DNA from: a virus
Reading direction: 5' to 3' (one strand)
Virus record (IMG/VR): IMGVR_UViG_3300025112_000257
Coordinates: 1 to 20,010 of that record
Length of the DNA: 20,010 bases
The notes beneath the pieces were generated by a model. It was not told the DNA's origin, did no database searches, and saw nothing but the letters and a program-made list of their open reading frames with translations. This document shows positions 1-16,622 of this stretch, one piece after another. The stretch's first letter is position 1. Every line of letters begins with the position of its first letter. The position numbers and the translations under genes were made by a program.

Positions 1-75
1 GGGTATGCTTATGTTTCGCAATAGTATTATTATGTTCCCGCAAAGTGGGAACAAAAGGTTTACACCTAGACCCAA

Positions 76-588
76 GTGGGGATAGTTTGTTACAAACTCT
101 CGGGAATAGAACAGGTGAATAAGAACACAGCAATAAGCCGCCGCAAGCCGAGTGCTCCCACTCAATTCTTGGACGACCAAGGACTGCTCAAGGGGAAACT
201 ATTAGACTTCGGTAGCGGCAGGGGCTTTGATGCCGATCACTATGGGATGACAGCATACGACCCACACTGGAGCCCCGACCCATTGGCCCTTGAAACACAG
301 TATAACACAATCGTGTGTAACTATGTTCTTAATGTGGTTGAGCCCGAGGAGGAGCAAGGCATTTTAGCAAAGGTAGCAAGCCTTCTCTCTCCAGCGGGGT
401 CAGCCTACTTCGCCGTGCGTAGAGACATACCTCGCACCGGTCAACAAGGTCGGGGATGTTGGCAGAGGTGGGTGGAACTGAAATTGCCTGTGGTGACTGA
501 ACGCCGGGGCTTTGTCATCTATAGAATGAACGAGACAAAGGAGGTGGGAAGAATGAAAGTCGGTGATGATTTTGAAGGCAACAAATAA
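76..588 (+). CDS. Small class I SAM-dependent methyltransferase
   Basis: This is a 170-residue protein with a compact Rossmann-type methyltransferase core. Motif I is LLDFGSGRG at about residues 42-50. It is followed by an acidic strand end, YDPH, near 61-64, which would bind the SAM ribose, and by a motif IV-like CNYVLNVV at 81-88. The segment RRKPSAPTQFL just before motif I is typical of small phage methyltransferases of this kind. No target-recognition domain is visible, so the substrate (nucleic acid, protein or small molecule) cannot be named. The start is uncertain. The GTG at 76 lacks a good SD site. A second GTG at 115 would trim 13 residues and still keep the whole conserved core. 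The gene ends seven bases before a tiny membrane-protein gene, in the same transcription direction as everything downstream. The family assignment is firm; the biological role is unknown. Confidence 0.8.
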   Translation: MGIVCYKLSGIEQVNKNTAISRRKPSAPTQFLDDQGLLKGKLLDFGSGRGFDADHYGMTAYDPHWSPDPLALETQYNTIVCNYVLNVVEPEEEQGILAKVASLLSPAGSAYFAVRRDIPRTGQQGRGCWQRWVELKLPVVTERRGFVIYRMNETKEVGRMKVGDDFEGNK

Positions 589-594
589 GAAATA

Positions 595-759
595 ATGTGG
601 TTCCTGCAAGAGTATCCAACAATAAGCGGATTGATATTTTCAATCATTCTGGGATTGCCCGTAGGACTAAGCACTGTGTGGAGCATTAGAGGCTTCCACG
701 AAGACCCAGACAAACCAAAAGACGAAAATGTCTGGGATGATGAGTGGGACTTGAGATGA
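595..759 (+). CDS. Small single-pass membrane protein (54 aa)
   Basis: This short open frame begins MWFLQEYPTISG. It has one hydrophobic segment at about residues 11-30, with several glycines and isoleucines, followed by a strongly acidic, tryptophan-containing tail ending DDEWDLR. The tail would most likely lie on one face of the inner membrane. Its stop codon overlaps the next ATG (ATGA at 756-759). That overlap, and the only six-base gap to the methyltransferase, support it as a real gene. The SD site is weak. No family is recognised. A hydrophobic helix with a charged tail is compatible with a superinfection-exclusion or lysis-accessory protein, but nothing here proves either. Confidence 0.6.
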   Translation: MWFLQEYPTISGLIFSIILGLPVGLSTVWSIRGFHEDPDKPKDENVWDDEWDLR

Positions 760-989
760 AACCCGGTGACTTGGTGCAAAGTAACTTATTCCACCCCAGT
801 GGATCAGGGGGTTACGGACTTGTGATGGGAGGCTGCGACTTGCCGGGATACTGGAACGTGTGGTGGGTTGGGGAGATTACCCCCACCAGTCAAATGATAG
901 AGGACTATCCTCATGGGGCGATTATCGACATTCACGAGGACGACATAGTTGTCGTTTCTGCGGGCACAAAAAAGAAAAATAAAGAATGA
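756..989 (+). CDS. Small beta-rich phage protein with MKPGDLV start
   Basis: This 77-residue protein starts MKPGDLVQ and runs through alternating short hydrophobic stretches (GYGLVMGG, WNVWWVGEI, GAIIDIHEDDIVVVS). The pattern suggests a small SH3- or KOW-like beta barrel. Proteins with the M-x-x-GDLV opening are common, uncharacterised small genes in tailed phages. The ATG at 756 is preferred over the in-frame GTG at 744 because it overlaps the preceding stop as ATGA and gives the family-typical N-terminus. The following gene opens MRAGDLVR, so the two look like tandem paralogues. The C-terminus is lysine-rich. Function unknown. Confidence 0.65.
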   Translation: MKPGDLVQSNLFHPSGSGGYGLVMGGCDLPGYWNVWWVGEITPTSQMIEDYPHGAIIDIHEDDIVVVSAGTKKKNKE

Positions 990-1165
990 GAGCAGGCGAT
1001 CTCGTGAGATTCAAATACTCGGGCGCTGACGCTGAAGGGTGGAAGATAGGCCTACTAAAACAATACCACAAATGGGAGAAGGTTGCAACCATTATTTACG
1101 AAGGAAAAGAAATAAGGGTGATGGCTGCGCTTGCAGAGATACATAAACGGGCTAAAAGATATTAG
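986..1165 (+). CDS. Second MxxGDLV small protein, probable paralogue
   Basis: This 59-residue frame begins MRAGDLVRFKYSG and ends in a basic tail (IHKRAKRY). The opening matches that of the gene just upstream (GDLV at residues 4-7 of both). The middle, WKIGLLKQYHKWEKVATIIYEGKE, again looks like short beta strands, so a duplicated SH3- or KOW-like fold is likely. The ATG overlaps the previous stop as ATGA (986-989), which supports translational coupling. Composition and spacing match the neighbours. A nucleic-acid-binding role is possible from the basic tail, but this is inference. It is the last gene before the first putative late promoter. Confidence 0.6.
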   Translation: MRAGDLVRFKYSGADAEGWKIGLLKQYHKWEKVATIIYEGKEIRVMAALAEIHKRAKRY

Positions 1166-1168
1166 AGA

Positions 1169-1180
1169 TACTATTTAATA
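1169..1180 (+). promoter_or_regulatory. Putative late promoter element TACTATTTAATA
   Basis: The element TACTATTTAATA lies in the 43-base gap before the ParB-fold gene, with its CTATTTA core 38 bases upstream of the start codon. It belongs to a family of six intergenic copies (WACTATWTA) in this window, all shortly before a start. The AT-rich single-box layout resembles T4-type late promoters, but the sequence is not the T4 TATAAATA box. Promoter function is inferred from recurrence and position. Confidence 0.5.
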
Positions 1181-1208
1181 TTAGTTTACTGGCGGGAGAT
1201 TAAAGTTA

Positions 1209-2144
1209 GTGAAAATAAAAAGAAAACTGATAAAAGAAGTTGTTCGAAGATTGCTGAAGGAAGAGGGACTCGACGCAGCTAGGCTTCCTCTAAAATTATC
1301 AGATGTTGATCCAGCAGTTGCTAAACAAGTAACTACGACTGGACAAAAAGACGGTGACCCAGAAGATGATAAAATCTCTGTTGCCGCAAAGCCCGAAGGC
1401 ATAAATCCAGTGCAAAAACTTTTCCCGTCACAGTCAAGCATGAATATTCAAAAGGCAATGACTTTTGTTTTACACATGATCGATCACCCTGCTGGAAAAA
1501 TGGACCCAGGTGGAGATCTTGGCGCTTTTATTAGCAAAGACGGATTTATTATGGATGGGCACCATCGGTGGATAGCTACAGCAATGGTAGACCCCACCAA
1601 ACCCGTGGGCGGCTTTTTGGTTCAATTCCCTGGCGAACAATTGGTAGCAATTCTTAACGCCATGACCAAGGGAAGATTTGGCGAGATGGAAGGCAAGCCG
1701 GCTTCGGGCGGCTTTGAGCAGTTTAAAGAAGGTCCGCTCCGTAAGCAATTATATGCTATGGTTAAGGGTGGCATTAGTAAAGAGACGGCCCCGGCTACTT
1801 TTGACCCAAAATGGCAAGGCATGTCCCCAGAAGATGTGCTTGTTGCACTAGAAACCTTTACCCAGAAAAAAGGACAAGATGCTGTGGAAGCAGCAGTCAC
1901 CAAAATGGTAAATAACTTGAGTGGCATAACGATGAAACCGCCAAGCTGGGCACCAAAAAGACCAGATATGCCGGTCGTCGATAAGCCTAATGTTGCCACT
2001 GCTGTTACAGCACTGGATCAAGGCGAAGTTGATTGGAACAAGCCATACCTTAAGCAAGATGGTGGTGGCGAAGAGAAAGCCGTCGCCAACCGTAAAGATA
2101 CAAAATGGAACGGACTTAGCTCGAAAAGCTGGGGAAAACAATGA
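1209..2144 (+). CDS. ParB/sulfiredoxin-fold protein (DGHHRW) with basic leader
   Basis: This is a 311-residue protein. A PSQ motif at residues 73-75 is followed about 40 residues later by DGFIMDGHHRW (residues 111-121). Those are the hallmarks of the ParB/sulfiredoxin nucleotide-binding fold, where the DGHHR loop binds phosphates. Members act as CTPases, nucleases, phosphotransferases or kinases, so the exact reaction cannot be read off. Residues 1-19 (MKIKRKLIKEVVRRLLKEE) form a basic amphipathic helix containing I-K-E and L-K-E. This resembles a T4-type capsid-targeting sequence and the leaders of the genes at 2141 and 12620. The C-terminal 100 residues are proline-, lysine- and glycine-rich and probably flexible. 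The GTG start has a GGGAG SD-like site about 11 bases upstream. The gene overlaps the next one as ATGA. Fold assignment is good; a packaged, injected role is inference. Confidence 0.72.
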   Translation: MKIKRKLIKEVVRRLLKEEGLDAARLPLKLSDVDPAVAKQVTTTGQKDGDPEDDKISVAAKPEGINPVQKLFPSQSSMNIQKAMTFVLHMIDHPAGKMDPGGDLGAFISKDGFIMDGHHRWIATAMVDPTKPVGGFLVQFPGEQLVAILNAMTKGRFGEMEGKPASGGFEQFKEGPLRKQLYAMVKGGISKETAPATFDPKWQGMSPEDVLVALETFTQKKGQDAVEAAVTKMVNNLSGITMKPPSWAPKRPDMPVVDKPNVATAVTALDQGEVDWNKPYLKQDGGGEEKAVANRKDTKWNGLSSKSWGKQ

Positions 2145-2467
2145 AACTGACAAAATCATATCTTAGAGAAGTTATCAAAGAAGAGTTAACAAGCCTCTCG
2201 GAACAACCAGAACAAGAAGAAACACCCCAGGCTCAGACCGACGACAAAGCCGCCAAAAGAGCCGGGAAGTCCGCTGTGGGACTTGCTGATGAACTAGTTG
2301 ACGGGATGTTGCAAAAGTCCGCCAGCCTAGCAAAAAGATTAGAACAACTCCGGACTAGCGACCAAAGAAGACTGGCACTGGCCAGAGCCGTCTTGGTGAA
2401 GATAGTGGGAATGGACCCAGGCAAAATAGATAAAATGCTTCAACTGCTAGTTCAAGGCATGAAATAA
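2141..2467 (+). CDS. Small helical protein with capsid-targeting-like leader
   Basis: This 108-residue protein starts MKLTKSYLREVIKEEL, a basic amphipathic helix with I-K-E at residues 12-14, which matches the (I/L)-x-E cleavage rule of T4-type prohead proteases. A polar, glutamine- and glutamate-rich linker (residues 18-38) follows. The rest is a helical body with alanine- and leucine-rich heptads (about residues 45-105). It is translationally coupled to the ParB-fold gene by an ATGA overlap. It resembles T4 internal proteins in size and design: short leader, cleavage site, small helical basic domain. It shows no detectable enzymatic motif. A scaffold-associated or packaged protein is the best reading. 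Confidence 0.6.
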   Translation: MKLTKSYLREVIKEELTSLSEQPEQEETPQAQTDDKAAKRAGKSAVGLADELVDGMLQKSASLAKRLEQLRTSDQRRLALARAVLVKIVGMDPGKIDKMLQLLVQGMK

Positions 2468-2476
2468 TAAATAATA

Positions 2477-2488
2477 AACTATTTATAC
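2477..2488 (+). promoter_or_regulatory. Putative late promoter element AACTATTTATAC
   Basis: The AACTATTTATAC copy of the recurring intergenic element sits in the gap before the holin-like gene, with its core 32 bases before the ATG. Read on the opposite strand it contains TATAAATA, the classic T4 late box. However, no gene on the minus strand starts from it, and the other five copies do not share that reverse match. Orientation is therefore assigned to the + strand by consistency. Confidence 0.5.
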
Positions 2489-2508
2489 CTACAGAGGAGG
2501 TGCTGTAG
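2489..2508 (+). promoter_or_regulatory. Leader hairpin with Shine-Dalgarno in the loop
   Basis: CTACAG (2489-2494) pairs perfectly with CTGTAG (2503-2508). The eight-base loop AGGAGGTG carries a near-perfect SD site at 2495-2500, ten bases before the ATG of the holin-like gene. The hairpin begins directly after the promoter element, so it would lie near the mRNA 5' end. It could present the SD for efficient loading, or delay translation until unfolded. Which of these applies is not visible. Confidence 0.55.
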
Positions 2509-2510
2509 AC

Positions 2511-2693
2511 ATGCACGAAAAACTAGACCAATGGCTCGGAAAATGGGCATCACGAAAATTAATGGTATGGATGACATCCACCGCTTTCTTGGCGATGGGC
2601 TCTTTAGCTAGCAGCGACTGGGTTGCTGTATCTCTAGCCTACATCGGGCTTCAAGGAGCAGCCGACATAGCGGCTAAGTGGAAGCATGGTTGA
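2511..2693 (+). CDS. Small holin-like membrane protein (60 aa)
   Basis: This 60-residue protein begins MHEKLDQWLGKWASRK. A hydrophobic segment follows at about residues 18-34 (MVWMTSTAFLAMGSLAS). A second, more amphipathic one spans about 36-53 (DWVAVSLAYIGLQGAADIA). It ends in a basic tail, KWKHG. The layout of a charged N-terminus, two short membrane segments with a YIG-x-QGAADI-like second helix, and a basic C-terminus is common among small phage proteins annotated as holin-like. It has a strong SD (AGGAGG) held in a hairpin loop. It is followed with a TGATG overlap by a spanin-like membrane protein. Lysis function is a reasonable guess from this pairing, but no endolysin gene lies in the window. 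Confidence 0.5.
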   Translation: MHEKLDQWLGKWASRKLMVWMTSTAFLAMGSLASSDWVAVSLAYIGLQGAADIAAKWKHG

Positions 2694-3007
2694 TGAAGCG
2701 ATTATGGTACAAGGCCAAAGAACTTTGGTGGAAAGTGGTGCTCGGGATTATTTTTCTCGGCGCACTTCTAATTTATTTTTACCGTCTGCTGAAACCAGCA
2801 GACGATAAAGTAGATTATTTGGAAGCAATAAAAACAGAAGCCACCGCAGCCTTAAAGGAAAACGAGTTGCGTGGTAGACTAGAAAAAGATAACATTGGAG
2901 CAATCAAGGATATCTTCAAAAGTCGTTTGGAAGATACACGAAAAATAGACGACCGAGAAGAACGATTGAGAGCCCTGATCAGACTCCATAAGGAATTAGA
3001 CATTTGA
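2693..3007 (+). CDS. Membrane-anchored coiled-coil protein, spanin-like
   Basis: This 104-residue protein has a short basic N-terminus (MKRLWYKAKELWWK), one transmembrane helix at about residues 15-32 (VVLGIIFLGALLIYFYRL) and a highly charged helical domain with coiled-coil character over residues 40-104. Under the positive-inside rule, the C-terminal domain would face the periplasm. This matches the design of an inner-membrane spanin (Rz-like), and the upstream neighbour is holin-like. The start at 2693 is preferred over an in-frame GTG at 2678 because it makes a TGATG overlap with the preceding stop. No overlapping outer-membrane lipoprotein gene (Rz1) was found, so the spanin label remains tentative. 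Confidence 0.5.
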   Translation: MKRLWYKAKELWWKVVLGIIFLGALLIYFYRLLKPADDKVDYLEAIKTEATAALKENELRGRLEKDNIGAIKDIFKSRLEDTRKIDDREERLRALIRLHKELDI

Positions 3008-3020
3008 GGAGAATAGAAAA

Positions 3021-4154
3021 ATGGTAGACATTCCTACACTAGACATTGAGGATTACGATCCTGATCTAAACGAAGAAGAGGAGGCTGTTGAGGATAAGTC
3101 CGGCGGCGCTCTAACTTATGCTATCGTCGGTGCCGGCCAAGGCGGCGGACGTATGGCTAAGGCGTTTTATGACATGGGCTATACCAAGACGGTTGCCGTT
3201 AACACAGCCCGCTCAGATTTGAACGGGCTAGATCTCCCAGATAACCAGAAGTTCCTCGTTGATGAACACGCTGCCCAGGGAGCCGGCAAAGACCAAGCCA
3301 AAGCTCAAGCAGCTATTGAGAAGAAAGAACAAGAAGTGTTCAACCTTTTCCGAGAGGTTTTTGGAAGCAACGTTGATCGTATTCTTATATGCCTTGGTGT
3401 TTCTGGTGGCTCGGGTGGCGGGTCGGTCAATACTCTTATCAAGGTGGCAAAGAAGTACTTCACTTACATCGGCGTCGAAGACGTAGATAAGCGTGTTGGC
3501 GTTGTTGCATCTCTGCCCACCGCCGGCGAATCTGCTTCTCCAACCGTGGCGAAGAATGCTCACGCCCGCATCACTCAACTTTGCGGGCTCGCAGAAAAAG
3601 GTAAGATTGCTCCCCTTATTATGGTGGACAACGAAAAGATTAAAAAGCTTTATCCCAAACTCACCGTCAAGAAATTTTGGAAGACTATCAATAATACTGT
3701 AGCTGGGCTTTTCCACGTCTTCAACGTTCTGGCGAATCAAGATTCAGAGTACACCACGTTTGATCCAACTGACTACGATAGCATTATGAGTCAGTCAGGG
3801 TGTATGATTATGGGCGTCACCAGCGTAAAGAACTTGGAAAGCGATACTGCTATTTCTAACGCTTTGAAGAAAAACCTCGAAAAGACACTTCTGGCAGAAG
3901 GTTTTGATTTGACCACCGCAACAGGAGCGGCCTGCATTGTTGTCGGCGGCGAAGTAATTTTTGAAGAGACTGTTGGGTTAATGGATAGTATTGAATTTGG
4001 GTTTGATACTTTGGCTGCCTTGACGGGCGGCGCTATTATCCACCGTGGCATCTATGAGGATAGTAATCGGGACAAACTTGTTACCTACACACTTGTTAGT
4101 GGACTTAAACGCCCAGTTAAAAGAATTGAGGGACTGAAAAAGTTCCTAAAGTAA
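3021..4154 (+). CDS. Tubulin/FtsZ-superfamily GTPase
   Basis: This 377-residue protein has the full set of tubulin/FtsZ nucleotide loops. T1 is GAGQGGGR at 37-44, T3 is NTARSDL at 61-67, and the T4 signature GVSGGSGGGS at 126-135 stands in for the usual GGGTG(S/T)G. T5 is SLPTAGE at 164-170 and T6 has VDN near 202-204, whose Asn would contact guanine. The T7 synergy loop is TFDPTD at 246-251, which keeps the two aspartates of the FtsZ NxDxxD motif. All catalytic elements are present, so it should polymerise and hydrolyse GTP. An acidic extension (residues 1-27) precedes the core and a basic tail closes it. There is no obvious FtsZ C-terminal anchoring peptide. The SD GAGGAG is ideal. Known phage relatives (PhuZ, TubZ) position DNA or capsids. 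The location just upstream of the terminase block suggests a role late in infection. Confidence 0.85.
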   Translation: MVDIPTLDIEDYDPDLNEEEEAVEDKSGGALTYAIVGAGQGGGRMAKAFYDMGYTKTVAVNTARSDLNGLDLPDNQKFLVDEHAAQGAGKDQAKAQAAIEKKEQEVFNLFREVFGSNVDRILICLGVSGGSGGGSVNTLIKVAKKYFTYIGVEDVDKRVGVVASLPTAGESASPTVAKNAHARITQLCGLAEKGKIAPLIMVDNEKIKKLYPKLTVKKFWKTINNTVAGLFHVFNVLANQDSEYTTFDPTDYDSIMSQSGCMIMGVTSVKNLESDTAISNALKKNLEKTLLAEGFDLTTATGAACIVVGGEVIFEETVGLMDSIEFGFDTLAALTGGAIIHRGIYEDSNRDKLVTYTLVSGLKRPVKRIEGLKKFLK

Positions 4155-4155
4155 T

Positions 4156-4536
4156 ATGAGACAAGCAGTAGCCTTAATCCTATGCTTCTCACTCAACGCC
4201 GCTGCCGCAGAAGTCACCATATTTGACCCACGCCCAGCCTCTGTTGAACAAGAGAGCAACACCTACATCGGAATCCTTCTCAGCGAAGAGGACTTTCGCA
4301 AAATACTGGAAAATAAAATTGATACTAACGCTTTGTTAGGCGAGTGCTCAATAGATAAGCAGGTTTGTGCGAAACAAAAAGAAATCTATGAGAAGGAAGC
4401 CAAAAAACTAGAAGCCCTAATTCTTAAAAATAACTCATGGTTTAGCAGAAATCGTGGAACTCTCGGACTCCTCACTGGTTTGGTGGTGGGAGCCGGTATG
4501 TCCATTGCTATAGTTCATGCCGTATATCAGAAGTGA
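4156..4536 (+). CDS. Exported protein with signal peptide and C-terminal TM helix
   Basis: This 126-residue protein begins MRQAVALILCFSLNAAAAEV, a short signal peptide with an AxA-type cleavage site after about residue 18. The mature part is polar and charged. It has two cysteines in a C-x8-C arrangement (CSIDKQVC) and a helical stretch at about 73-95. A glycine-rich transmembrane segment lies near 104-122. The predicted topology is periplasmic with a C-terminal inner-membrane anchor. The Cys at residue 10 is not in a proper lipobox, so lipoprotein processing is unlikely. It starts one base after the GTPase stop and overlaps the next gene as GTGA. It could cooperate with the upstream membrane proteins in lysis, or act in superinfection exclusion. 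No family is recognised. Confidence 0.65.
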   Translation: MRQAVALILCFSLNAAAAEVTIFDPRPASVEQESNTYIGILLSEEDFRKILENKIDTNALLGECSIDKQVCAKQKEIYEKEAKKLEALILKNNSWFSRNRGTLGLLTGLVVGAGMSIAIVHAVYQK

Positions 4537-4952
4537 AAAAAAAAGATTATAATTACATTGCAGCGATAGAGAAAGCAATATCAAAAAAATATGGGATTGA
4601 AACAGTTCAAGATTTCCGCACTTCGTGGCCGAAAGCCAGAGAAGAAGACTATCTTGAGCAATTACGGCAACGTAACAAATCTAAAAAAAAGAAGTCAAAA
4701 AAAGAGAAACTACAGGTGGGACAGGTACTAATCACTTCCCGCCCCAATGCCAGAAAAGAAGAAAGAACTTGCCCTACCTGCAAAACATATTCATTTTCCC
4801 CCAAAGACGACCTATATATGAATAGGTTTAAATGCTGTTTTCGTTGCTATATTGAATTTGTTGAGTACCGTGAGGAAGAGTGGTTATTTGGCAAAAGACC
4901 AAGCGAAGAAAATATTAATGAGGCACTAAAAAGGAGAAAAAACAATGGCTAG
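4533..4952 (+). CDS. Zinc-ribbon protein
   Basis: This 139-residue protein has three parts. The N-terminus is helical and charged (residues 1-48) and is followed by a very lysine-rich stretch (about 49-60) likely to bind nucleic acid. A zinc ribbon has C80-P-T-C83 as the first knuckle and C102-F-R-C105 as the second, separated by 18 residues, with an additional C101. Beyond the ribbon is an acidic helix. The GTG start overlaps the previous stop (GTGA). A zinc-ribbon gene two genes ahead of the terminase could act in late transcription or DNA packaging, but the sequence shows only likely metal and nucleic-acid binding. Confidence 0.65.
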   Translation: MKKKDYNYIAAIEKAISKKYGIETVQDFRTSWPKAREEDYLEQLRQRNKSKKKKSKKEKLQVGQVLITSRPNARKEERTCPTCKTYSFSPKDDLYMNRFKCCFRCYIEFVEYREEEWLFGKRPSEENINEALKRRKNNG

Positions 4953-5481
4953 TATTCTGGATATTGTAAAAGGGTTAAATCAGGCAGCTAGTAATGCTTA
5001 TGACGGCTACGAAAACATGGACGAAGATATCGGTCTTCGCCGAGAAGAGGGGCACCCCATCTTGGATAGCCGTATTATCGATGGGTTCAGGGTCAGATTC
5101 TCGGCCGATAAGATGATCGTGACATATCAGAGCGATGTGTTGATGAAGGAGATTCATCCACGGAATCAATTCGAAAATGAAGTTGAGGCAAGGTTCGGCG
5201 ACATTTTAAAGTTTTTGAAAAAAGAATATAAAAAAGTGACCAAGGAGAGTGTTTCTCTCACCGAAGTTGGTGAGACAGATATGCTTGTTCAGTCAACCTC
5301 TCGGGTTCGGAACTGGGTTCAGGCCACCAAACAATATAAAATTGGCGGCATTGATGGTGTTGATTCTCTCGGACAAACATCGGACGAAAAATTAGAGTCA
5401 AACATAAAGAAATTTATGGAACTACACACAACAAAAAAAGCGAACAAGGCTCCTAAAAACCCCGATACGCCAGAGGCGTAA
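4945..5481 (+). CDS. Unknown terminase-adjacent protein
   Basis: This 178-residue protein begins MASILDIVKGLNQAASNAYDGY. The central region, about residues 40-105, mixes strands and helices (IIDGFRVRFSADKMIVTYQSDV, then a lysine-rich helix FGDILKFLKKEYKKV). Past the glycine-rich IGGIDGVDSLG the C-terminal third is a charged helix and a lysine/proline tail. It has a strong SD (AAGGAG) and overlaps the zinc-ribbon gene by eight bases. Its stop abuts the terminase ATG directly. In T4 the small terminase gp16 occupies this position, which makes it a positional candidate. However, no clear DNA-binding helix-turn-helix or coiled-coil oligomerisation core is visible, so the product is left unnamed. 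Confidence 0.6.
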   Translation: MASILDIVKGLNQAASNAYDGYENMDEDIGLRREEGHPILDSRIIDGFRVRFSADKMIVTYQSDVLMKEIHPRNQFENEVEARFGDILKFLKKEYKKVTKESVSLTEVGETDMLVQSTSRVRNWVQATKQYKIGGIDGVDSLGQTSDEKLESNIKKFMELHTTKKANKAPKNPDTPEA

Positions 5482-7062
5482 ATGTCCTTATCAAAAAAGG
5501 AAATAATGGCAGAGGTCGTGCGTTCTGGCAAAGACCCTGTCTATTTTTCCAATAGTTACGCAAAAATCTCGCACCCGATGCGGGGGCTCATACCCTTCGA
5601 TATGTATGGGTTTCAAGAAGATACTATGAGAGATTTTAAAAAGCATAGATTTAATGTTATTTTAAAAGCTCGTCAGTTAGGAATATCTACGACGGTCGCC
5701 TCATACGTTTGCTGGCTAATGCTTTTTCATCGAAATAAAGATATATTAGTAGTTGCGACCAAACTTGGCACTGCTGCCAACTTAGTTAAGAAAGCCAAGG
5801 CGATATATAAGAATTTGCCGGCATGGCTGAGAATTGCTACTATTGAGATAGATAATCGAAATTCATTCGAACTATCTAACGGCTCCCAAGTGAAGGCTTC
5901 TTCAACCTCCGGCGATGCTGGACGTTCGGAGGCTCTTTCTCTTCTGGTTGTGGACGAAGCTGCAATCGTCGAGGGTTTGACTGAGATGTGGGCTGGACTT
6001 TATCCCACTCTGTCCACAGGTGGTACTTGTATCGCTCTTAGCACTCCCTATGGTGTCGGCAATTGGTTCCACAAAATATATGTTGAAGCCGAAGAACAAA
6101 AAAATGATTTCAATCCGATTAAATTGCCGTGGACAGTCCACCCAGATAGAGACGAGGCGTGGTTTATAAAAGAAACTCGGAATATGTCCAAGCGGGAAAT
6201 AGCCCAGGAGCTAGAGTGTAATTTTAATGCCTCCGGCGAGACGGTGATTCACGGGGATGATTTAAATAGGATAATGGAAAATATTTCCGAACCAGTTCAC
6301 AAAACGGGATTTGACAGAAACTACTGGATATGGAAGACACCAGAAGAAGGTAGAGATTATCTCACCGTCGCCGATGTTGCGAGGGGAGACGGATCAGATT
6401 TTAGTGTCTGTCAGGTTATAGACTTAGAGACCCTAGAACAGGTGGCAGAGTATCAAGGAAAAATAGCCCCTGATATGTTTGCTCCTCTCCTTTATAATAT
6501 TGGGAATGAATATAACGGCGCACTAATGGTTATTGAAAACAATTCTTTGGGCATTGGGGTCCTGAGCAGACTAGAAGAACTAGAATATAATAATCTATAT
6601 TATAGCAAAAAAACAACTCACGAATATCTAGACCAAGCCACCTCCGAAGCTATTGGTGGTGTGGCTGGATTTACTATGTCTATGAAAACAAGACCTTTGG
6701 TGATAGCTAAGTTTGAAGAATTCGTAAGAAATAAACTACTTACTATTAATTCAATGCGGCTAGCCAACGAGATAAAAACGTTTATTTGGCACAACGGTCG
6801 GCCGCAGGGGATGAGGAACTATAATGATGACCTTGTTATAGCGGTTTCTATAGGGTGCTGGGTTCGTGATACAGCTTTGACTGTAAATAAAAGAGAGGTT
6901 GAATATAAGAAAGCTTTAATTGGTGGTATATTTACAACTAGTAAAAAGCTAAACTCTAAGATAGAGGGAATGCACGGTTATCAACCACCAAAAAAACCCA
7001 AGAATACATTTGAGGGTACTGACGGTAGACAGTATGATTTATCATGGATAATAAAAGGATAG
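5482..7062 (+). CDS. gp17: Terminase large subunit (T4 gp17-like packaging motor)
   Basis: This 526-residue protein is the ATPase-nuclease that cuts concatemeric DNA and pumps it through the portal. The N-terminal ATPase has a deviant Walker A, KARQLGISTT (residues 62-71). Compared with T4 SRQLGKTT, the usual P-loop lysine is Ile68. Walker B is LLVVDEAA (154-161; D158, E159) and the coupling motif is STP (187-189). The C-terminal RNase H-like nuclease shows the acidic triad at D298 (TVADVARGDGSD), E352 (VIENNS) and D449/D450 (NDDLVIA). Its length is close to the roughly 610 residues of T4 gp17, with a shorter N-terminus. It starts immediately after the stop of the preceding gene and is followed three bases later by the portal gene, the functional partner. 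Identification is firm. Confidence 0.95.
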   Translation: MSLSKKEIMAEVVRSGKDPVYFSNSYAKISHPMRGLIPFDMYGFQEDTMRDFKKHRFNVILKARQLGISTTVASYVCWLMLFHRNKDILVVATKLGTAANLVKKAKAIYKNLPAWLRIATIEIDNRNSFELSNGSQVKASSTSGDAGRSEALSLLVVDEAAIVEGLTEMWAGLYPTLSTGGTCIALSTPYGVGNWFHKIYVEAEEQKNDFNPIKLPWTVHPDRDEAWFIKETRNMSKREIAQELECNFNASGETVIHGDDLNRIMENISEPVHKTGFDRNYWIWKTPEEGRDYLTVADVARGDGSDFSVCQVIDLETLEQVAEYQGKIAPDMFAPLLYNIGNEYNGALMVIENNSLGIGVLSRLEELEYNNLYYSKKTTHEYLDQATSEAIGGVAGFTMSMKTRPLVIAKFEEFVRNKLLTINSMRLANEIKTFIWHNGRPQGMRNYNDDLVIAVSIGCWVRDTALTVNKREVEYKKALIGGIFTTSKKLNSKIEGMHGYQPPKKPKNTFEGTDGRQYDLSWIIKG

Positions 7063-7065
7063 AAA

Positions 7066-8940
7066 ATGGACGACAATAATCAGAACAACCCAAGAAACAT
7101 TCAATCGACTCTTTTTAAGAGATTGACACGCCTCTTTAGTGGTCCAATAGTTAACTATAAGCAGCCGTCGGTTGTGAAAACAACCCCAAGGACTGTTAAA
7201 AAATATAAATTCAAAACAAGTACCGGCAAAGAGTTCAAGAAAAAAGAATATTACAACCCGTTCAGCGGACTACAAAATAAAGTATTGATGAATCGTGACA
7301 AACAGTTGCGCTATACTGATTTCGACCAGATGGAGTATACTCCGGAGCTTGCATCAGCCCTAGACATATATGCGGATGAAATAACTACATCCTCGGAGAT
7401 CACGCCATTGGTCCACATAGAGTGTCACAACAGAGAGATCAAAGAAATTATTCATACGTTGCTGTATAACGTATTAAACATAGAATTGAATTTGTTTGGT
7501 TGGGCACGAAGTATGTGCAAATATGGAGACTACTTTTTGTATCTTGACGTGGATGATGAAATGGGAGTCACTAACGTAATTCCTTTGCCAATTCGAGAGG
7601 TAGAGAGAATAGAGGGAAAGGACGAGACAAACCCCAATTATGTTCAATACTATTGGTCGGGACAAGGCGAAGGAGTTACTTTTGAAAACTGGCAGTTAGC
7701 TCATTTTAGAGTTTTGGGGAACGATAAGTATGTTCCTTATGGAACTTCTGTTTTGGAGTCTGCCCGAAGAATTTGGCGACAGTTGATTCTATTGGAAGAC
7801 GCCATGATGGCCTATAGAATTGTCAGATCTCCCGAGCGCCGTGTTTTTTATATAGATGTTGGAAACATTCCTGCGGAGGATGTAGAACAATATATTCAAC
7901 AAGTGCAAACACAAATGAAACGCAACCAGATTGTTGATGAAGATTCTGGCAGAGTAGACCTTCGTTATAATCCAATGAGTATCGATGAGGATTATTATGT
8001 TCCAGTTAGAGCCGGCAACTCTTCTAGAATAGAGACTTTGGCTGGCGGACAATTTACGGGCGACATTGACGACGTAAATTATCTTCGGGATAAATTATTT
8101 TCTGCTATTAAAATACCAAAATCTTATCTGGCTCAAACTGATGCCATGGAAGATAAAACAACTCTGGCTCAAAAAGACATTCGCTTTGCAAGAACAATCC
8201 AGCGTCTTCAGCGGGTAGTCTTGTCTGAAATACAAAAAATATGTGTTATTCATCTCTATAGCATGGGCTACAGAAATGAAGATTTGATGAACTTCTCCTT
8301 GACATTGAACAACCCTAGTAAAATTGCCGAATTGCAAGAACTGGAACACCTTAGAACAAAATTTGATATCGCTGGCGCAGCTACTGAGGGTTTATTTTCA
8401 AAACGCTGGATATATAAAAGTATCTTTAAGATGGACGACGATGAGGTTGAGCGAATTATGCGTGAACAGTTTACAGACTCTAAGCACAGTTCCCTTATAG
8501 AGGCCGCTGGTACTGCTGCCGGCGAGGGGGCATCGGCGGACCTCGGCGGCGACCTTGGGGGCGAAGGCGAAGGTGAAGGTGAACTTGGCGACCTTGAGGG
8601 GGGAGATCTTGAAGGAGAAGATGTGGACGCTGAAGAAGGTCCGCTCCTCGCTGAACCAGAGCCGGGACAGCGAGATGATGACTGGTATAAACCTGTTGCT
8701 ATCGACAAGAGAAAAGGTATGGGACCCAGGAAGAGGAGCATCACCGCCGCCGCCGGAGAAAAAGTTGCTTACCCTGGAGCATCCAGAATGTTTCAGGGCG
8801 TTGCAGACGGGCTGGGACCACTTAGCAGAGGAATCGTCAGCGCCGGAAGAAATCGGGAAGAAGATTTAATTACTGAGACAAATAGAGACATTGAGCAACT
8901 AATTAAAGAGTTGGACAAAAGACATGAAAAACAAACATAA
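7066..8940 (+). CDS. gp20: Portal vertex protein (T4 gp20-like)
   Basis: This 624-residue protein forms the dodecameric DNA channel at the special vertex of the head. Strong T4 gp20 signatures include YTPELASALDIYADEI near 90-105, a YRIVRSPERRVFYIDVGN segment near 250-267, and DDVNYLRDKLFSAIKIPKSYL near 330-350. About 100 residues longer than T4 gp20 (524), it gains most of the extra length at the C-terminus. There, a glycine/glutamate/aspartate repeat tract (about residues 490-530, coding positions about 8530-8655) leads into a basic region and a final charged helix. A clear SD (AAGGA) precedes the ATG. The 3' end overlaps the next gene by 17 bases. Assignment is firm; the acidic C-terminal extension is unusual. 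Confidence 0.93.
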   Translation: MDDNNQNNPRNIQSTLFKRLTRLFSGPIVNYKQPSVVKTTPRTVKKYKFKTSTGKEFKKKEYYNPFSGLQNKVLMNRDKQLRYTDFDQMEYTPELASALDIYADEITTSSEITPLVHIECHNREIKEIIHTLLYNVLNIELNLFGWARSMCKYGDYFLYLDVDDEMGVTNVIPLPIREVERIEGKDETNPNYVQYYWSGQGEGVTFENWQLAHFRVLGNDKYVPYGTSVLESARRIWRQLILLEDAMMAYRIVRSPERRVFYIDVGNIPAEDVEQYIQQVQTQMKRNQIVDEDSGRVDLRYNPMSIDEDYYVPVRAGNSSRIETLAGGQFTGDIDDVNYLRDKLFSAIKIPKSYLAQTDAMEDKTTLAQKDIRFARTIQRLQRVVLSEIQKICVIHLYSMGYRNEDLMNFSLTLNNPSKIAELQELEHLRTKFDIAGAATEGLFSKRWIYKSIFKMDDDEVERIMREQFTDSKHSSLIEAAGTAAGEGASADLGGDLGGEGEGEGELGDLEGGDLEGEDVDAEEGPLLAEPEPGQRDDDWYKPVAIDKRKGMGPRKRSITAAAGEKVAYPGASRMFQGVADGLGPLSRGIVSAGRNREEDLITETNRDIEQLIKELDKRHEKQT

Positions 8941-10289: not shown

Positions 10290-10634
10290 ATGGATTTATT
10301 TTTGTTTATATTCTGTGCTTACGGGCTTACACAAATTTTAGTTTACTCTGATGTTTTTATAAGTGTACGGCCGTCTGGCTATTTTTTCCATTGTCCCATG
10401 TGTGTAGGCTTTTGGGTTGGTGTATTTCTTATGCTCCTAAACCCTTTTACAGAACTATTTACCTTTGATGTCTCTGTTGTCAATGCCCTTCTTTTGGGGT
10501 CTTTATCTTCGGGAACATCATATGTGTTGTGTATGCTAATCTCGGACGGAGGATTTCAACATGAATACCGAATTAATAGGGATGTGGACACAAAAGTGGA
10601 GACTGAGACCAGTCGCAAGGTGTTGCAGGGGTAG
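10290..10634 (+). CDS. DUF1360-like membrane protein with CPMCVGFW motif
   Basis: This 114-residue protein has a hydrophobic N-terminal helix (residues 3-20), then the sequence FHCPMCVGFWVGVFLMLL (residues 33-50), with paired cysteines C35 and C38 running into a second membrane helix. A third helix lies near 63-85. The hydrophilic tail has alternating charges. A C-x2-C-x-GFW motif at the entry to a membrane helix is characteristic of the DUF1360 group, found in Bacillus and many phages without a known function. AAGGT upstream can serve as the SD. Its place inside the head gene cluster is odd for a membrane protein; T4 heads do assemble on the inner membrane, so a membrane-linked assembly role is conceivable. 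Confidence 0.65.
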   Translation: MDLFLFIFCAYGLTQILVYSDVFISVRPSGYFFHCPMCVGFWVGVFLMLLNPFTELFTFDVSVVNALLLGSLSSGTSYVLCMLISDGGFQHEYRINRDVDTKVETETSRKVLQG

Positions 10635-10642
10635 TTGTACCG

Positions 10643-10663
10643 TGCGGGTAGCGCCCGCATTTT
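10643..10663 (+). promoter_or_regulatory. GC-rich hairpin upstream of the protease gene
   Basis: TGCGGG (10643-10648) pairs with CCCGCA (10654-10659) around a five-base TAGCG loop and is followed by four T residues (10660-10663). The AGGGAG SD of the protease gene starts at about 10665. The stem is short for an intrinsic terminator and the T tract is minimal, so it may act as a partial terminator or an mRNA-stability or translation-tuning hairpin for the protease. Confidence 0.45.
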
Positions 10664-10676
10664 CAGGGAGAAAAAA

Positions 10677-11273
10677 ATGAATAAGAAATACGTCTTACAA
10701 GAATTTATGAATCTGGATTACAGTGATGATCTTCTCACCGAAGAGGAACGTGAAGGCAATCGCCAGGGCACCCATCTTATCGTGGCTGGCAAAATCCAAG
10801 CCGCAGGCAAGAAGAACGGCAATGGCCGCATTTACCCCAAGCCCATACTTGAGCGGGAAATGAAGAACTACGAAAAGCTAGTCCGAGAGGGGAGAGCTAT
10901 CGGAGAACTTGACCACCCAGACAGTTCAGTTGTAGAACTAAAGAACGCCAGCCATCTCGTCACCGAAGTATGGTGGAACGGGGATGATGTCATGGGCAAG
11001 ATGAAGATTTTAGAGACCCCTGCGGGGCAGATAGCCAAACAACTCGTTGAGGGCGGCGTCCAACTGGGAATATCTAGCCGTGGACTCGGGTCTACCCGCC
11101 AAGAAGGCGGTACCACTATGGTAGAGGATGACTTCCAGCTTCTCTGTTTTGATTTGGTTTCCGAACCAAGCACTACGGGTGCCTATCTTGTGGCAGAAAG
11201 CCAAGTCAAAACCCATCTAACGAAGGCTGACCGCATCAACCGGGCCCTTAACGACGTACTCGGAGACGACTGA
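10677..11273 (+). CDS. gp21: Prohead core protease (T4 gp21-like)
   Basis: This 198-residue serine protease matures the prohead by cleaving scaffold, capsid and internal proteins after (I/L)-x-E. The herpesvirus-assemblin-like fold is marked by GELDHP with catalytic His80 and GISSRGLG with the nucleophile at Ser133/Ser134. FDLVSEPS near 158-165 supplies the third conserved region. NGNGRIYP (48-54) is the typical N-terminal substrate-groove motif. The ATG at 10677 is preferred over the in-frame TTG at 10635 because AGGGAG lies just upstream and the shorter protein matches the roughly 212 residues of T4 gp21. The N-terminus contains L-Q-E (7-9) and L-T-E (20-22), possible self-cleavage sites. 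It overlaps the next gene as TGATG. Identification is firm. Confidence 0.92.
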   Translation: MNKKYVLQEFMNLDYSDDLLTEEEREGNRQGTHLIVAGKIQAAGKKNGNGRIYPKPILEREMKNYEKLVREGRAIGELDHPDSSVVELKNASHLVTEVWWNGDDVMGKMKILETPAGQIAKQLVEGGVQLGISSRGLGSTRQEGGTTMVEDDFQLLCFDLVSEPSTTGAYLVAESQVKTHLTKADRINRALNDVLGDD

Positions 11274-12619: not shown

Positions 12620-13024
12620 ATGAAAAAATCGGAACTAAAAAATATTATTAAAGAATGCGTGAAGGAGGTCATCTTTGAAGAGGGCGTCTTGTCGGGCATT
12701 ATTACGGAAGTGGCTCAAGGACTTCAAGGCTCCACTCCTATAAGAGAGAACAGTATGGCCATCATCGCCGAAGCTAGCAAAAAATCCAACTCATCGCCCG
12801 GTCAAGACGAAACAAGAAAAAAAGTTATGGCAGCCATTGCAAACGATTACTCCGACGTTAAGAATAAATTTTCTAACCCGGCTTTGTTTGAAGGAACAAA
12901 GCCACTCCCCTCGGATAGTAAAGGGGCACTTGCCGGCGTAGCCCCAAGTGATACCGGAATTGATCTGACTTCAATACCGGGGCTTGGGAACTGGTCAAGA
13001 ATTGCCGAGGGCAATAGAAAGTAG
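12620..13024 (+). CDS. Leader-bearing putative internal head protein
   Basis: This 134-residue protein begins MKKSELKNIIKECVKEVIFE, an amphipathic basic-acidic helix with I-K-E at residues 10-12 and I-F-E at 18-20. It is the third protein in the window with such a leader (the others are at 1209 and 2141). A low-complexity, serine- and alanine-rich middle follows, then a C-terminal motif DLTSIPGLGNWSRIAEG (about 115-131). No enzymatic residues are evident. Its late promoter, its position before the scaffold and capsid genes, and the protease-site leader together suggest a prohead-core or packaged protein. The real function is unknown, and the leader could instead be a generic virion-assembly tag. 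Confidence 0.6.
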   Translation: MKKSELKNIIKECVKEVIFEEGVLSGIITEVAQGLQGSTPIRENSMAIIAEASKKSNSSPGQDETRKKVMAAIANDYSDVKNKFSNPALFEGTKPLPSDSKGALAGVAPSDTGIDLTSIPGLGNWSRIAEGNRK

Positions 13025-14861: not shown

Positions 14862-16622
14862 ATGACTATGTTAGATACTCTTACAGAGGGCATCCGACAA
14901 CGTTCCTTAGCCAACGAGGGTGAAGCTCTCCTTGGGAAGTGGGAAAAGACTGGACTCCTAGAGGGCCTGAACGATAATCATCGTTCAACTATGGCTCGTC
15001 TACTGGAGAACCAGGCTGCCCAGCTTCTCAAAGAGCAAACCACAATGGCTGCTGGTGACGTTGAAGGCTTTGCCTCAGTTGCTTTCCCAATTGTTCGCCG
15101 TGTATTCGGTGGTCTTTTGGCACAGGACCTCGTGTCCGTTCAACCGATGAGCCTCCCTAGTGGACTCATCTTCTTCATGGACTTTGCTTTTAGTCCAGAT
15201 TCTGGCATGATTGGTGCCAGTGACGAAAAACATCGTCTTGCTAATGAGGCTGACACTTCCCTTTATGGTGGTGGTGTCGTTGGTCGTGCATTGACTGGTG
15301 GTGTTTCTTTGGCTGATGGCAATCAGGAACTTGGATTCTATTCTTTGAACAATGGCTTCTCTAGCCCGACAGGATCGGACACGGGAGCAGTTGTGGTTTG
15401 GGCTTCGGGTACTTTTGGTGATGCTAATACGAGCCCTGGTGGAAACCTGTGGTCAACGCTTCGTGGCGATCCCGATCTTGTTTCGGGTACATCGACTTAC
15501 GTCATTGCTTCGGCTTCGTTGCCCACTTCTACTGGTGCAAACTTCAAGAACCTTGCCGCATTCGTGCTGTCAGGTTCTGATGGTCGTGGTAATCTTGCCA
15601 GCGGCGCATATCATGCTCGCCGCCTCAATCAGATGAGTGGTTCTGAAACTAGAGTCCTCAATCTGGTTGGTGTTTCTCGTGAAGGAACTCGAAGCGCAGT
15701 TCAAATGTCTGCTTCGATGCTGGGCACTTCCGCCTCTCCCGCAGGTGGAACCCATGGTACGGTTCACTACCCAATCACCGACGAATTTGTCGCCGCTGGC
15801 GATCCTTTCGGCGGAATTCGTGGTGGTAACGGAAACCAGGGATGGAATCTTGAAACATCGCCGGCTATCCCCGAGATAGACATTAAGGTCCAGAGCATCG
15901 CCGTGACAGCCGTCACCAAGAAGCTCAAGGCCAAGTGGAGTCCTGAGCTTGCTCAAGACTTGAATGCTTATCATAACCTCGACGCTGAAGTTGAGCTTAC
16001 AAGCATTCTTTCGGAGCAGATTGCTCTTGAAATCGACCAAGAGATTCTGAATGATCTCGTCGGTGGCGCTAAGGGTGGTACTCTGTACTGGTCTCGTCGC
16101 CCTGGTAGGTTCTTGAATCGTGAAACCGGTGCAGACGTTACTACAAGTCTGGCTCCCGACTTCACAGGTACGGTTAGTGAATGGTACGAGACTCTTCTCG
16201 AAGCCATTAATGACTTGAGTGCTCGTATTCATCGCAAGACTCTTCGTGGTGGCGCAAACTTCGTGGTTTGCTCTCCTGAGGTGGCTTCGTTGCTTGAGTT
16301 CACAAGTGGGTTTAAGGCGAATATCGCCTCTGACGAAGATAAGGGCTCCTGGGGTGCCGTCAATGTTGGTTCTTTGAGCCGCAAGATGGACATTTATGTT
16401 GATCCTTACTTCACCCGTAACCTTCTTCTGGTCGGACGTAAGGGAAGCAGCTTCTTAGAAAGCGGCTATGTTTACGCTCCGTATGTGCCACTGCAAGTGA
16501 CACCCACCATCTTTGGTGTCGAAGACTTCGTGCCCCGCAAGGGCGTGATGACTCGTTATGCCAAGCAAATGGTGCGTCCAGATATGTACGGACTTGTTGT
16601 TGTGGCTGATTTGGTTGGTTAA
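14862..16622 (+). CDS. gp23: Major capsid protein (T4 gp23-like)
   Basis: This 586-residue HK97-fold protein forms the hexamers of the head. T4 gp23 landmarks include PIVRRVFGGLLAQDLVSVQPM (about 75-95), KKLKAKWSPELAQDLNAYH with LDAEVELTSILSEQIALEI following it, and GANFVVCSP. The C-terminal block KMDIYVDPYFTRNLLLVGRKG is followed by YVYAPYVPL and RYAKQMVRPDMYG. The N-terminal 58-65 residues are a scaffold-binding propeptide. Likely protease sites are L-L-E at 47-49 and L-K-E at 56-58, near the T4 cleavage after residue 65. An SD (AAGGAG) is 14-19 bases upstream. Codon use is visibly richer in G/C-ending codons than its neighbours, in keeping with high expression. A hairpin and a strong terminator follow. 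Identification is firm. Confidence 0.95.
   Translation: MTMLDTLTEGIRQRSLANEGEALLGKWEKTGLLEGLNDNHRSTMARLLENQAAQLLKEQTTMAAGDVEGFASVAFPIVRRVFGGLLAQDLVSVQPMSLPSGLIFFMDFAFSPDSGMIGASDEKHRLANEADTSLYGGGVVGRALTGGVSLADGNQELGFYSLNNGFSSPTGSDTGAVVVWASGTFGDANTSPGGNLWSTLRGDPDLVSGTSTYVIASASLPTSTGANFKNLAAFVLSGSDGRGNLASGAYHARRLNQMSGSETRVLNLVGVSREGTRSAVQMSASMLGTSASPAGGTHGTVHYPITDEFVAAGDPFGGIRGGNGNQGWNLETSPAIPEIDIKVQSIAVTAVTKKLKAKWSPELAQDLNAYHNLDAEVELTSILSEQIALEIDQEILNDLVGGAKGGTLYWSRRPGRFLNRETGADVTTSLAPDFTGTVSEWYETLLEAINDLSARIHRKTLRGGANFVVCSPEVASLLEFTSGFKANIASDEDKGSWGAVNVGSLSRKMDIYVDPYFTRNLLLVGRKGSSFLESGYVYAPYVPLQVTPTIFGVEDFVPRKGVMTRYAKQMVRPDMYGLVVVADLVG

Follow-up and report, generated by a model that had tools for sequence, protein, structure and literature searches.

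TUB, the phage tubulin gene described here, encodes a complete GTPase of the tubulin/FtsZ superfamily. It is located at positions 3021 to 4154 (+) of the window, which is the complete IMG/VR record IMGVR_UViG_3300025112_000257 (20,010 bases). Judged from sequence, the family to which TUB belongs is a new lineage of phage tubulins in a new type of phage and is unusually conserved. The best explanation for TUB, with a probability of about 0.5, is that it forms a filament during the lytic phase and thereby positions DNA and/or proheads of the phage; polymerisation, late timing, and cargo are what we infer here.

Distribution and conservation of the TUB family

Scans of IMG/VR revealed up to 118 places per scan that encode relatives of TUB, and these are found on more than 110 viral contigs. 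Three clades can be recognized. The tubulins of clade A are 82-95% identical to the window TUB, those of clade B 65-67%, and those of clade C 66-69%, and the three clades are 65-69% identical to each other. A single intermediate tubulin (L194) stands beside them. With more than 110 contigs and three clades, TUB is not a chance capture. Each record carries one tubulin in 15 of the 15 records tested. Among 50,697 phage records, the sole relative is gp138 of Bacillus phage G (approximately 22% identity), and five plasmids gave weak matches, which are to TubZ-type genes. No TUB relatives were found when 84,980 prokaryote species genomes were scanned with a peptide pattern, a strict method by which absence is not proven. 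FtsZ-like names are already present on single database entries (phage G and BFVD), and no report of the TUB family was found in the openly licensed literature.

Within clade A, TUB has the highest conservation of the proteins compared. Its median identity to the window is 91.8%, and that of the prohead protease is 89.7%. Lower values were obtained for the terminase (75.5%), the capsid protein (67.2%), the portal (66.7%), and the flanking genes g3 to g8 (54-87%). The median dN/dS of TUB is also the lowest of the genes compared, at approximately 0.02, a value that is approximate because many synonymous distances were saturated and only 50 pairs were used. Such extreme conservation is expected for a self-assembling polymer.

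Domains, loops, and terminal peptides

The TUB ORF encodes 377 amino acids. It begins with an ATG at 3021, ends with a TAA at 4152-4154, and has a ribosome-binding-like sequence, GGAG, ahead of the ATG. An earlier note on this DNA had described a complete tubulin/FtsZ-like GTPase here, and its coordinates, frame, and length were exact. A GTPase domain is followed by a TubZ-like C-terminal domain, as indicated by Pfam, a structure model, Foldseek, and the more than 110 relatives. The Pfam Tubulin profile matches TUB with an E of 9e-9 (36.3 bits, cut-off 33) and TubZ-like_C (PF22453) with an E of 1e-7 (32.3 bits, cut-off 26). Both are above their cut-offs in clades A, B, and C; L194 falls slightly below the cut-off for TubZ-like_C. 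A phmmer search of the PDB gave FtsZ and TubZ as its top matches (E approximately 4e-8). There was no match in PHROGs (best E 0.18), and the family is thus absent from that library. Pfam, the fold, and the aligned loops all place TUB in the tubulin/FtsZ superfamily.

All of the nucleotide loops are present, as the earlier note had stated. By alignment, loop T1 is GAGQGGGR (3129-3152, +, residues 37-44), loop T3 is QGAGKDQ (3276-3296, +, residues 86-92), and T4, the glycine-rich tubulin signature, is GVSGGSGGGS (3396-3425, +, residues 126-135). The variant signature that had been noticed, GGSGGGS, lies within the latter. Its final S is peculiar to the window copy in clade A, and most clade A relatives have GGSGGGT. 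The T7 (synergy) loop is TTFDPTDYD (3753-3779, +, residues 245-253). It contains both catalytic-type aspartates, D248 and D251, in the sequence FDPTDYD, and these are invariant across clades A, B, and C. The alignments also show the key residues of T1, T3, T4, and T7 to be unchanged between clades. Two other copies are defective. The tubulin at L067:256-1359 has an in-frame loss of 9 residues spanning loop T1, and the one at L033:826-1962 is broken into two ORFs. These are either assembly errors or decaying copies.

The acidic N-terminal extension that had been reported is present and conserved. At the tip of this disordered extension is the motif IPTLDIEDYDP (3030-3062, +, residues 4-14), with the consensus IPxLxxED[FY], and an acidic linker that is probably disordered comes after it. 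The pLDDT of the model is below 50 at residues 1-24. In alignments, the tubulins of clades A, B, and C and of L194 share the motif, which was not found in FtsZ, TubZ, PhuZ, or the tubulin of phage G. It may be a binding peptide. A basic C-terminal helix (4116-4148, +, residues 366-376; consensus KR[IL]ExLxKF) is also conserved in the family. It was considered as a membrane anchor, a reading that its ordinary hydrophobic moment does not support.

Gene block around TUB in clade A

A search with the terminase alone gave 80 contigs, of which 50 have at least 1.7 kb upstream. TUB was found upstream of the terminase in all of these judgeable clade A contigs (50/50); the gap is 1.3-1.5 kb in all but one of them, where it is 2.2 kb. 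In the window, the terminase ORF begins at 5482, 1,327 bp past TUB, close to the 1.3 kb given previously. The order g3-g4-TUB-g6-g7-g8-terminase is fixed in clade A, so that the synteny proposed as a check does hold among related contigs.

The first gene of the block, g3 (2511-2693, +), encodes a small hydrophobic protein of 60 amino acids that is holin-like by eye and is kept upstream in 35 of 35 covered contigs. It has no Pfam or PHROG match and no segment above the transmembrane threshold. Next is g4 (2678-3007, +), which encodes a single-transmembrane protein with a charged C-terminal part. It adjoins the 5' side of TUB (35 of 35 covered contigs), in the position that is held by TubR in plasmids. 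Membrane-protein-like genes upstream had been described, and these can be recognized as g3 and g4; one is also directly downstream. This is g6 (4156-4536, +; 55 of 55 covered contigs), which starts 1 bp past the TUB stop codon and encodes a signal-peptide-like N-terminus and a C-terminal transmembrane segment. A small protein with zinc-finger-like cysteines is encoded by g7 (4533-4952, +; 55/55), and g8 (4945-5481, +; 54/55) encodes 178 amino acids and adjoins the terminase. The possibility that g8 is the small terminase was rejected, given a low-confidence fold and no match. The genes of the block touch or overlap, and co-transcription is therefore likely.

The packaging and head genes follow. 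The large terminase of gp17 type (5482-7062, +) was identified by Pfam, PHROGs, its Far-T4 relatives, and a tree. The portal of gp20 type (7066-8940, +) was identified by Pfam and PHROGs, with its best matches among Far-T4 isolates, and the major capsid protein of gp23 type (14862-16622, +) by Pfam and PHROGs. A prohead protease-like gene (10635-11273, +) has an annotated counterpart in Mel-JY01 and immuto. Proteins encoded at 1209-2144, 2141-2467, and 12620-13024 of the window have, by eye, a similar leader of approximately MKxxxxxLxxxIKEx, which is possibly a shared capsid-targeting sequence or cleaved propeptide. A small multi-span membrane protein of the CPMCxGFWVG type is encoded near the terminase in clades A and B (window 10290-10634, L178:15937-16245, and L194:5433-5741).

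The neighbors of TUB raise the possibility of a membrane or lysis role, in which TUB would work with g3, g4, and g6, for example in placing or timing the lysis machinery. The contiguity of g3-g4-TUB-g6 in every covered clade A contig, the 1 bp between TUB and g6, and the basic C-terminal helix are consistent with this. However, no homologs of these neighbors were detected next to the clade B and clade C tubulins, g3, g4, and g6 are clearly faster evolving than TUB, and no match identifies g3 or g4 as a holin or spanin. The unremarkable hydrophobic moment of the helix also counts against such a role, which is decidedly unlikely.

TUB in other clades and exchange between lineages

The location of TUB differs in the other clades. 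In clade C, it is upstream of PhoH and approximately 80 kb from the terminase. In clade B, it is approximately 2-6 kb from the terminase with variable strand and place, and many clade B relatives have no tubulin nearby. Closeness to the terminase alone is thus weak evidence of a packaging role. A filament for packaging, new for this phage type, had been proposed in the earlier note. The tubulin is indeed new for the type; its adjacency to the terminase is seen in the window's clade only. This absence of adjacency in clade C and its variability in clade B count against a filament that serves packaging. Three small ORFs beside the clade B tubulin, at L178:6818-7778 (-) and L183:6845-7798 (+), resemble, by eye, the Fe-S cluster assembly proteins ferredoxin, IscU, and IscA.

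TUB could also be a GTPase that does not polymerise or that is associated with the virion, and that contributes to the assembly of heads or tails as a structural or regulatory protein. It does lie between structural and packaging genes, and its conservation equals that of the prohead protease. However, the position of TUB changes in clades B and C, and the catalytic residues of polymer type are invariant, including those of T7, which are active solely between two subunits. Such a GTPase is very unlikely.

Clades A and B share only 31-36% identity in the terminase and approximately 30% in the portal, yet their tubulins are 65-67% identical. The reverse can be seen in two B-type phages, L181 and L194, with 79% identity in the terminase, 76% in the portal, and only 65% in the tubulin. 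The tubulin of L194 is closer to clade C (72%). The mismatch between L181 and L194 indicates that the tubulin gene has passed between phage lineages at least once, and strictly vertical inheritance with the terminase was rejected on the basis of this swap.

The phages and their hosts

The phage of the window is T4-like, as had been suggested. It possesses proteins of gp17, gp20, and gp23 types and belongs on the Far-T4 side rather than with the cyano-T4 phages. The nearest relatives of its terminase and portal are the Far-T4 isolates Mel-JY01, the Flavobacterium phages 'immuto', and RM378, and in the terminase tree clades A and C group with Mel-JY01 and immuto (95/96). Profile searches found no tubulin in the cultured Far-T4 phages Mel-JY01, immuto, and RM378, and the same searches recover that of phage G. 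The main text of three Far-T4 papers does not contain 'tubulin' or 'FtsZ' (PMC4360716, PMC13037479, PMC7198788).

The long contigs of clade A measure 172-191 kb and have a GC content of 41-43%. No integrase was found in eight related contigs, three of which are 172-191 kb. Searches for two markers of nucleus-forming phages, chimallin and the multisubunit RNA polymerase profile PF00623, gave no match in G001-G003 and G016, and these searches also missed chimallin in two of three PhuZ phages and PF00623 in phiKZ. A search for hosts through infected genome bins found none, and a tRNA pattern served instead. When the tRNA-Arg(TCT) of the long clade A contigs was used as a slightly degenerate pattern, it matched 21 genomes. 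Of these, 19 belong to Bacteroidota, and the other two are a Nitratireductor bin and an unnamed bacterium. By this indirect evidence, the hosts of the TUB phages are probably Bacteroidota, and Far-T4 host predictions agree with this result (PMC7198788, PMC13037479).

Other genes can be mentioned. The 178.6-kb clade A contig G001 (L147-L155) encodes PrkA kinase, SpoVR, and DUF444, a stress-response triad that looks unusual for a phage. It also encodes GroEL-like, FtsH-like (M41), ClpP, M50 protease, and IMPDH proteins, as well as a bacterial-type DNA polymerase III alpha. Phage tmRNA genes are present at L154:4108-4430 (tag ANDDFQLALAA; Rfam, 94 bits) and L207:18098-18423 (tag ANDDFEMEMAA). A PurZ-like 2-aminooxy adenylosuccinate synthetase is encoded at L211:6312-7304 in the clade C contig G016 (phrog_1211, E 1e-74), which may point to modified adenine in that genome.

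Proposed role of TUB

TUB, as a GTPase from a new phage branch of the tubulin/FtsZ superfamily, would form filaments. Its place in a tightly packed, same-strand run with head and packaging genes makes expression late in lytic infection probable. Subunits with bound GTP would join in a head-to-tail row, in which the T7 aspartates of each subunit complete the GTPase site of its neighbor. Such filaments would be dynamic and could then move phage DNA and/or proheads into place within the host cell, much as PhuZ does, minus the phage nucleus. The conserved acidic N-terminal peptide may bind a partner or the cargo. A filament is favored by the intact inter-subunit catalytic residues together with purifying selection that is typical of polymers. 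The movement of proheads and phage DNA by PhuZ in other phages provides a precedent (PMC10299810, PMC13282480). That the cultured Far-T4 relatives live without a tubulin counts against this explanation.

Comparison with known tubulins

An AlphaFold2 model of TUB was built from 13 relatives (pTM 0.84). Structure prediction had been named as a check, and the tubulin fold was retained. By Foldseek, the best matches are the TubZ protofilament subunits 2xka/2xkb (E 4e-19, TM 0.68-0.73), with CetZ and FtsZ behind TubZ. In the viral structure library, PhuZ matches are weaker (TM approximately 0.50-0.55), and the top match is BFVD A0A6J5RW92, the 'FtsZ Cell division GTPase' of an uncultured Caudovirales phage (E 6e-29, TMq 0.83), with 28% identity in the structural alignment. 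This protein may belong in the TUB family or near it. In a maximum-likelihood tree of 36 tubulin/FtsZ sequences, the TUB family is one clade with a support of 100/100 and a long stem, and it forms one group with TubZ and phage G (97/93). Its exact neighbor is uncertain because the branches are long. The FtsZ clade (99/97) and the PhuZ clade (100/100) are both separate. TUB is thus neither a host FtsZ, nor a PhuZ, nor a plasmid TubZ. Neither of the two outcomes that the earlier note would have taken as refutation, a fold lacking the tubulin nucleotide pocket or a place within host FtsZ with no conservation among related phages, was observed.

The FtsZ of Bacteroidota, the likely hosts, shares the superfamily and the GTPase core with TUB. 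The identity is only 16-22%, and the two are distant in the tree. The NCBIfam ftsZ profile gives 52.7 bits with TUB, below its cut-off of 295.2, and no C-terminal anchor peptide of the ExxPAYLRR type was found on TUB. The phylogeny thus bears out the earlier view that TUB is not a captured host ftsZ. TUB could nevertheless block host division during infection, by co-assembly with host FtsZ or by sequestering FtsZ partners. The shared superfamily would allow this, eight of the nine genomes identified by way of the host-type tRNA have their own ftsZ, and DIPTL in the N-terminal motif is slightly like the proteobacterial FtsZ C-terminal peptide DIPAFL. The motif was considered as a mimic of that peptide, but this found no support, since the ExxPAYLRR peptides of the likely host FtsZs are basic and the phage motif is acidic. 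The low similarity to host FtsZ and the opposite charge of the tail argue against mimicry. Host-targeting proteins usually diversify, whereas TUB is under very strong purifying selection, and phage FtsZ inhibitors are small peptides as a rule. Interference with host division therefore appears unlikely.

The TubZ of Bacillota plasmids, which belongs to type III partition systems, is the best fold match (2xka, TM 0.72) and the nearest named group in the tree. It shares with TUB a T7 of the style FD..[DE] and a short C-terminal domain. These likenesses are what would suggest a TubZ-like partition role, in which TUB segregates phage genomes kept as a plasmid-like or pseudolysogenic element. However, the identity is 20-23%, and TubZ_C (PF21493), which plasmid TubZ matches strongly (79 bits in Lysinibacillus TubZ), has no match to TUB at E<=1 in Pfam. 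Each of the plasmid TubZ genes fetched has a gene of 100-120 amino acids just upstream, whereas TUB has the single-membrane-span g4 in that place instead of a TubR-type gene. No tubC-like repeats or iteron array were found in window 1-6000, and plasmid TubZ does not have the motif IPxLxxED[FY]. With no integrase in eight related contigs and neither a TubR-like neighbor nor tubC-like repeats beside TUB, a lytic role is favored over partition, which is highly improbable.

Bacillus phage G gp138, a putative FtsZ-like cell division protein, is likewise a phage-encoded tubulin and falls on the TUB side of the tree, and the A3 profile matches it with an E of 6e-18. It differs from TUB in its long branch and in having neither an N-terminal extension nor a TubZ-like_C match, and its gene is surrounded by genes of nucleotide metabolism in a phage of 498 kb.

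The phage tubulins of studied role are PhuZ, which is tied to the phage nucleus, and the TubZ of phage c-st, which is tied to prophage partition (PMC7950403). The TUB family could represent a third kind of phage cytoskeleton, a tentative view that falls somewhat short of an even chance. Tubulin filaments of sub-jumbo, T4-like Bacteroidota phages would organize DNA and/or proheads for packaging without a nucleus, under a constraint so strong that the tubulin outlasts capsid and terminase sequence, and they would be exchanged between lineages. A near-invariant tubulin in uncultured sub-jumbo T4-like phages suggests that cytoskeletal organization of infection extends beyond the nucleus-forming giants. 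The family would also allow the direct question of why a phage needs a spindle. PhuZ of the nucleus-forming jumbo phages is also encoded by large lytic phages, and its job is similar to the one proposed for TUB. The identity between them is 14-17%, they form separate clades, and PhuZ carries a C-terminal domain, PF22334 (128 bits in phiKZ PhuZ), for which TUB has no match. Many PhuZ proteins are only 23-37% identical to that of phiKZ, whereas TUB hardly varies. PhuZ is divergent and dispensable (PMC10299810); TUB, in contrast, is conserved above the capsid protein.
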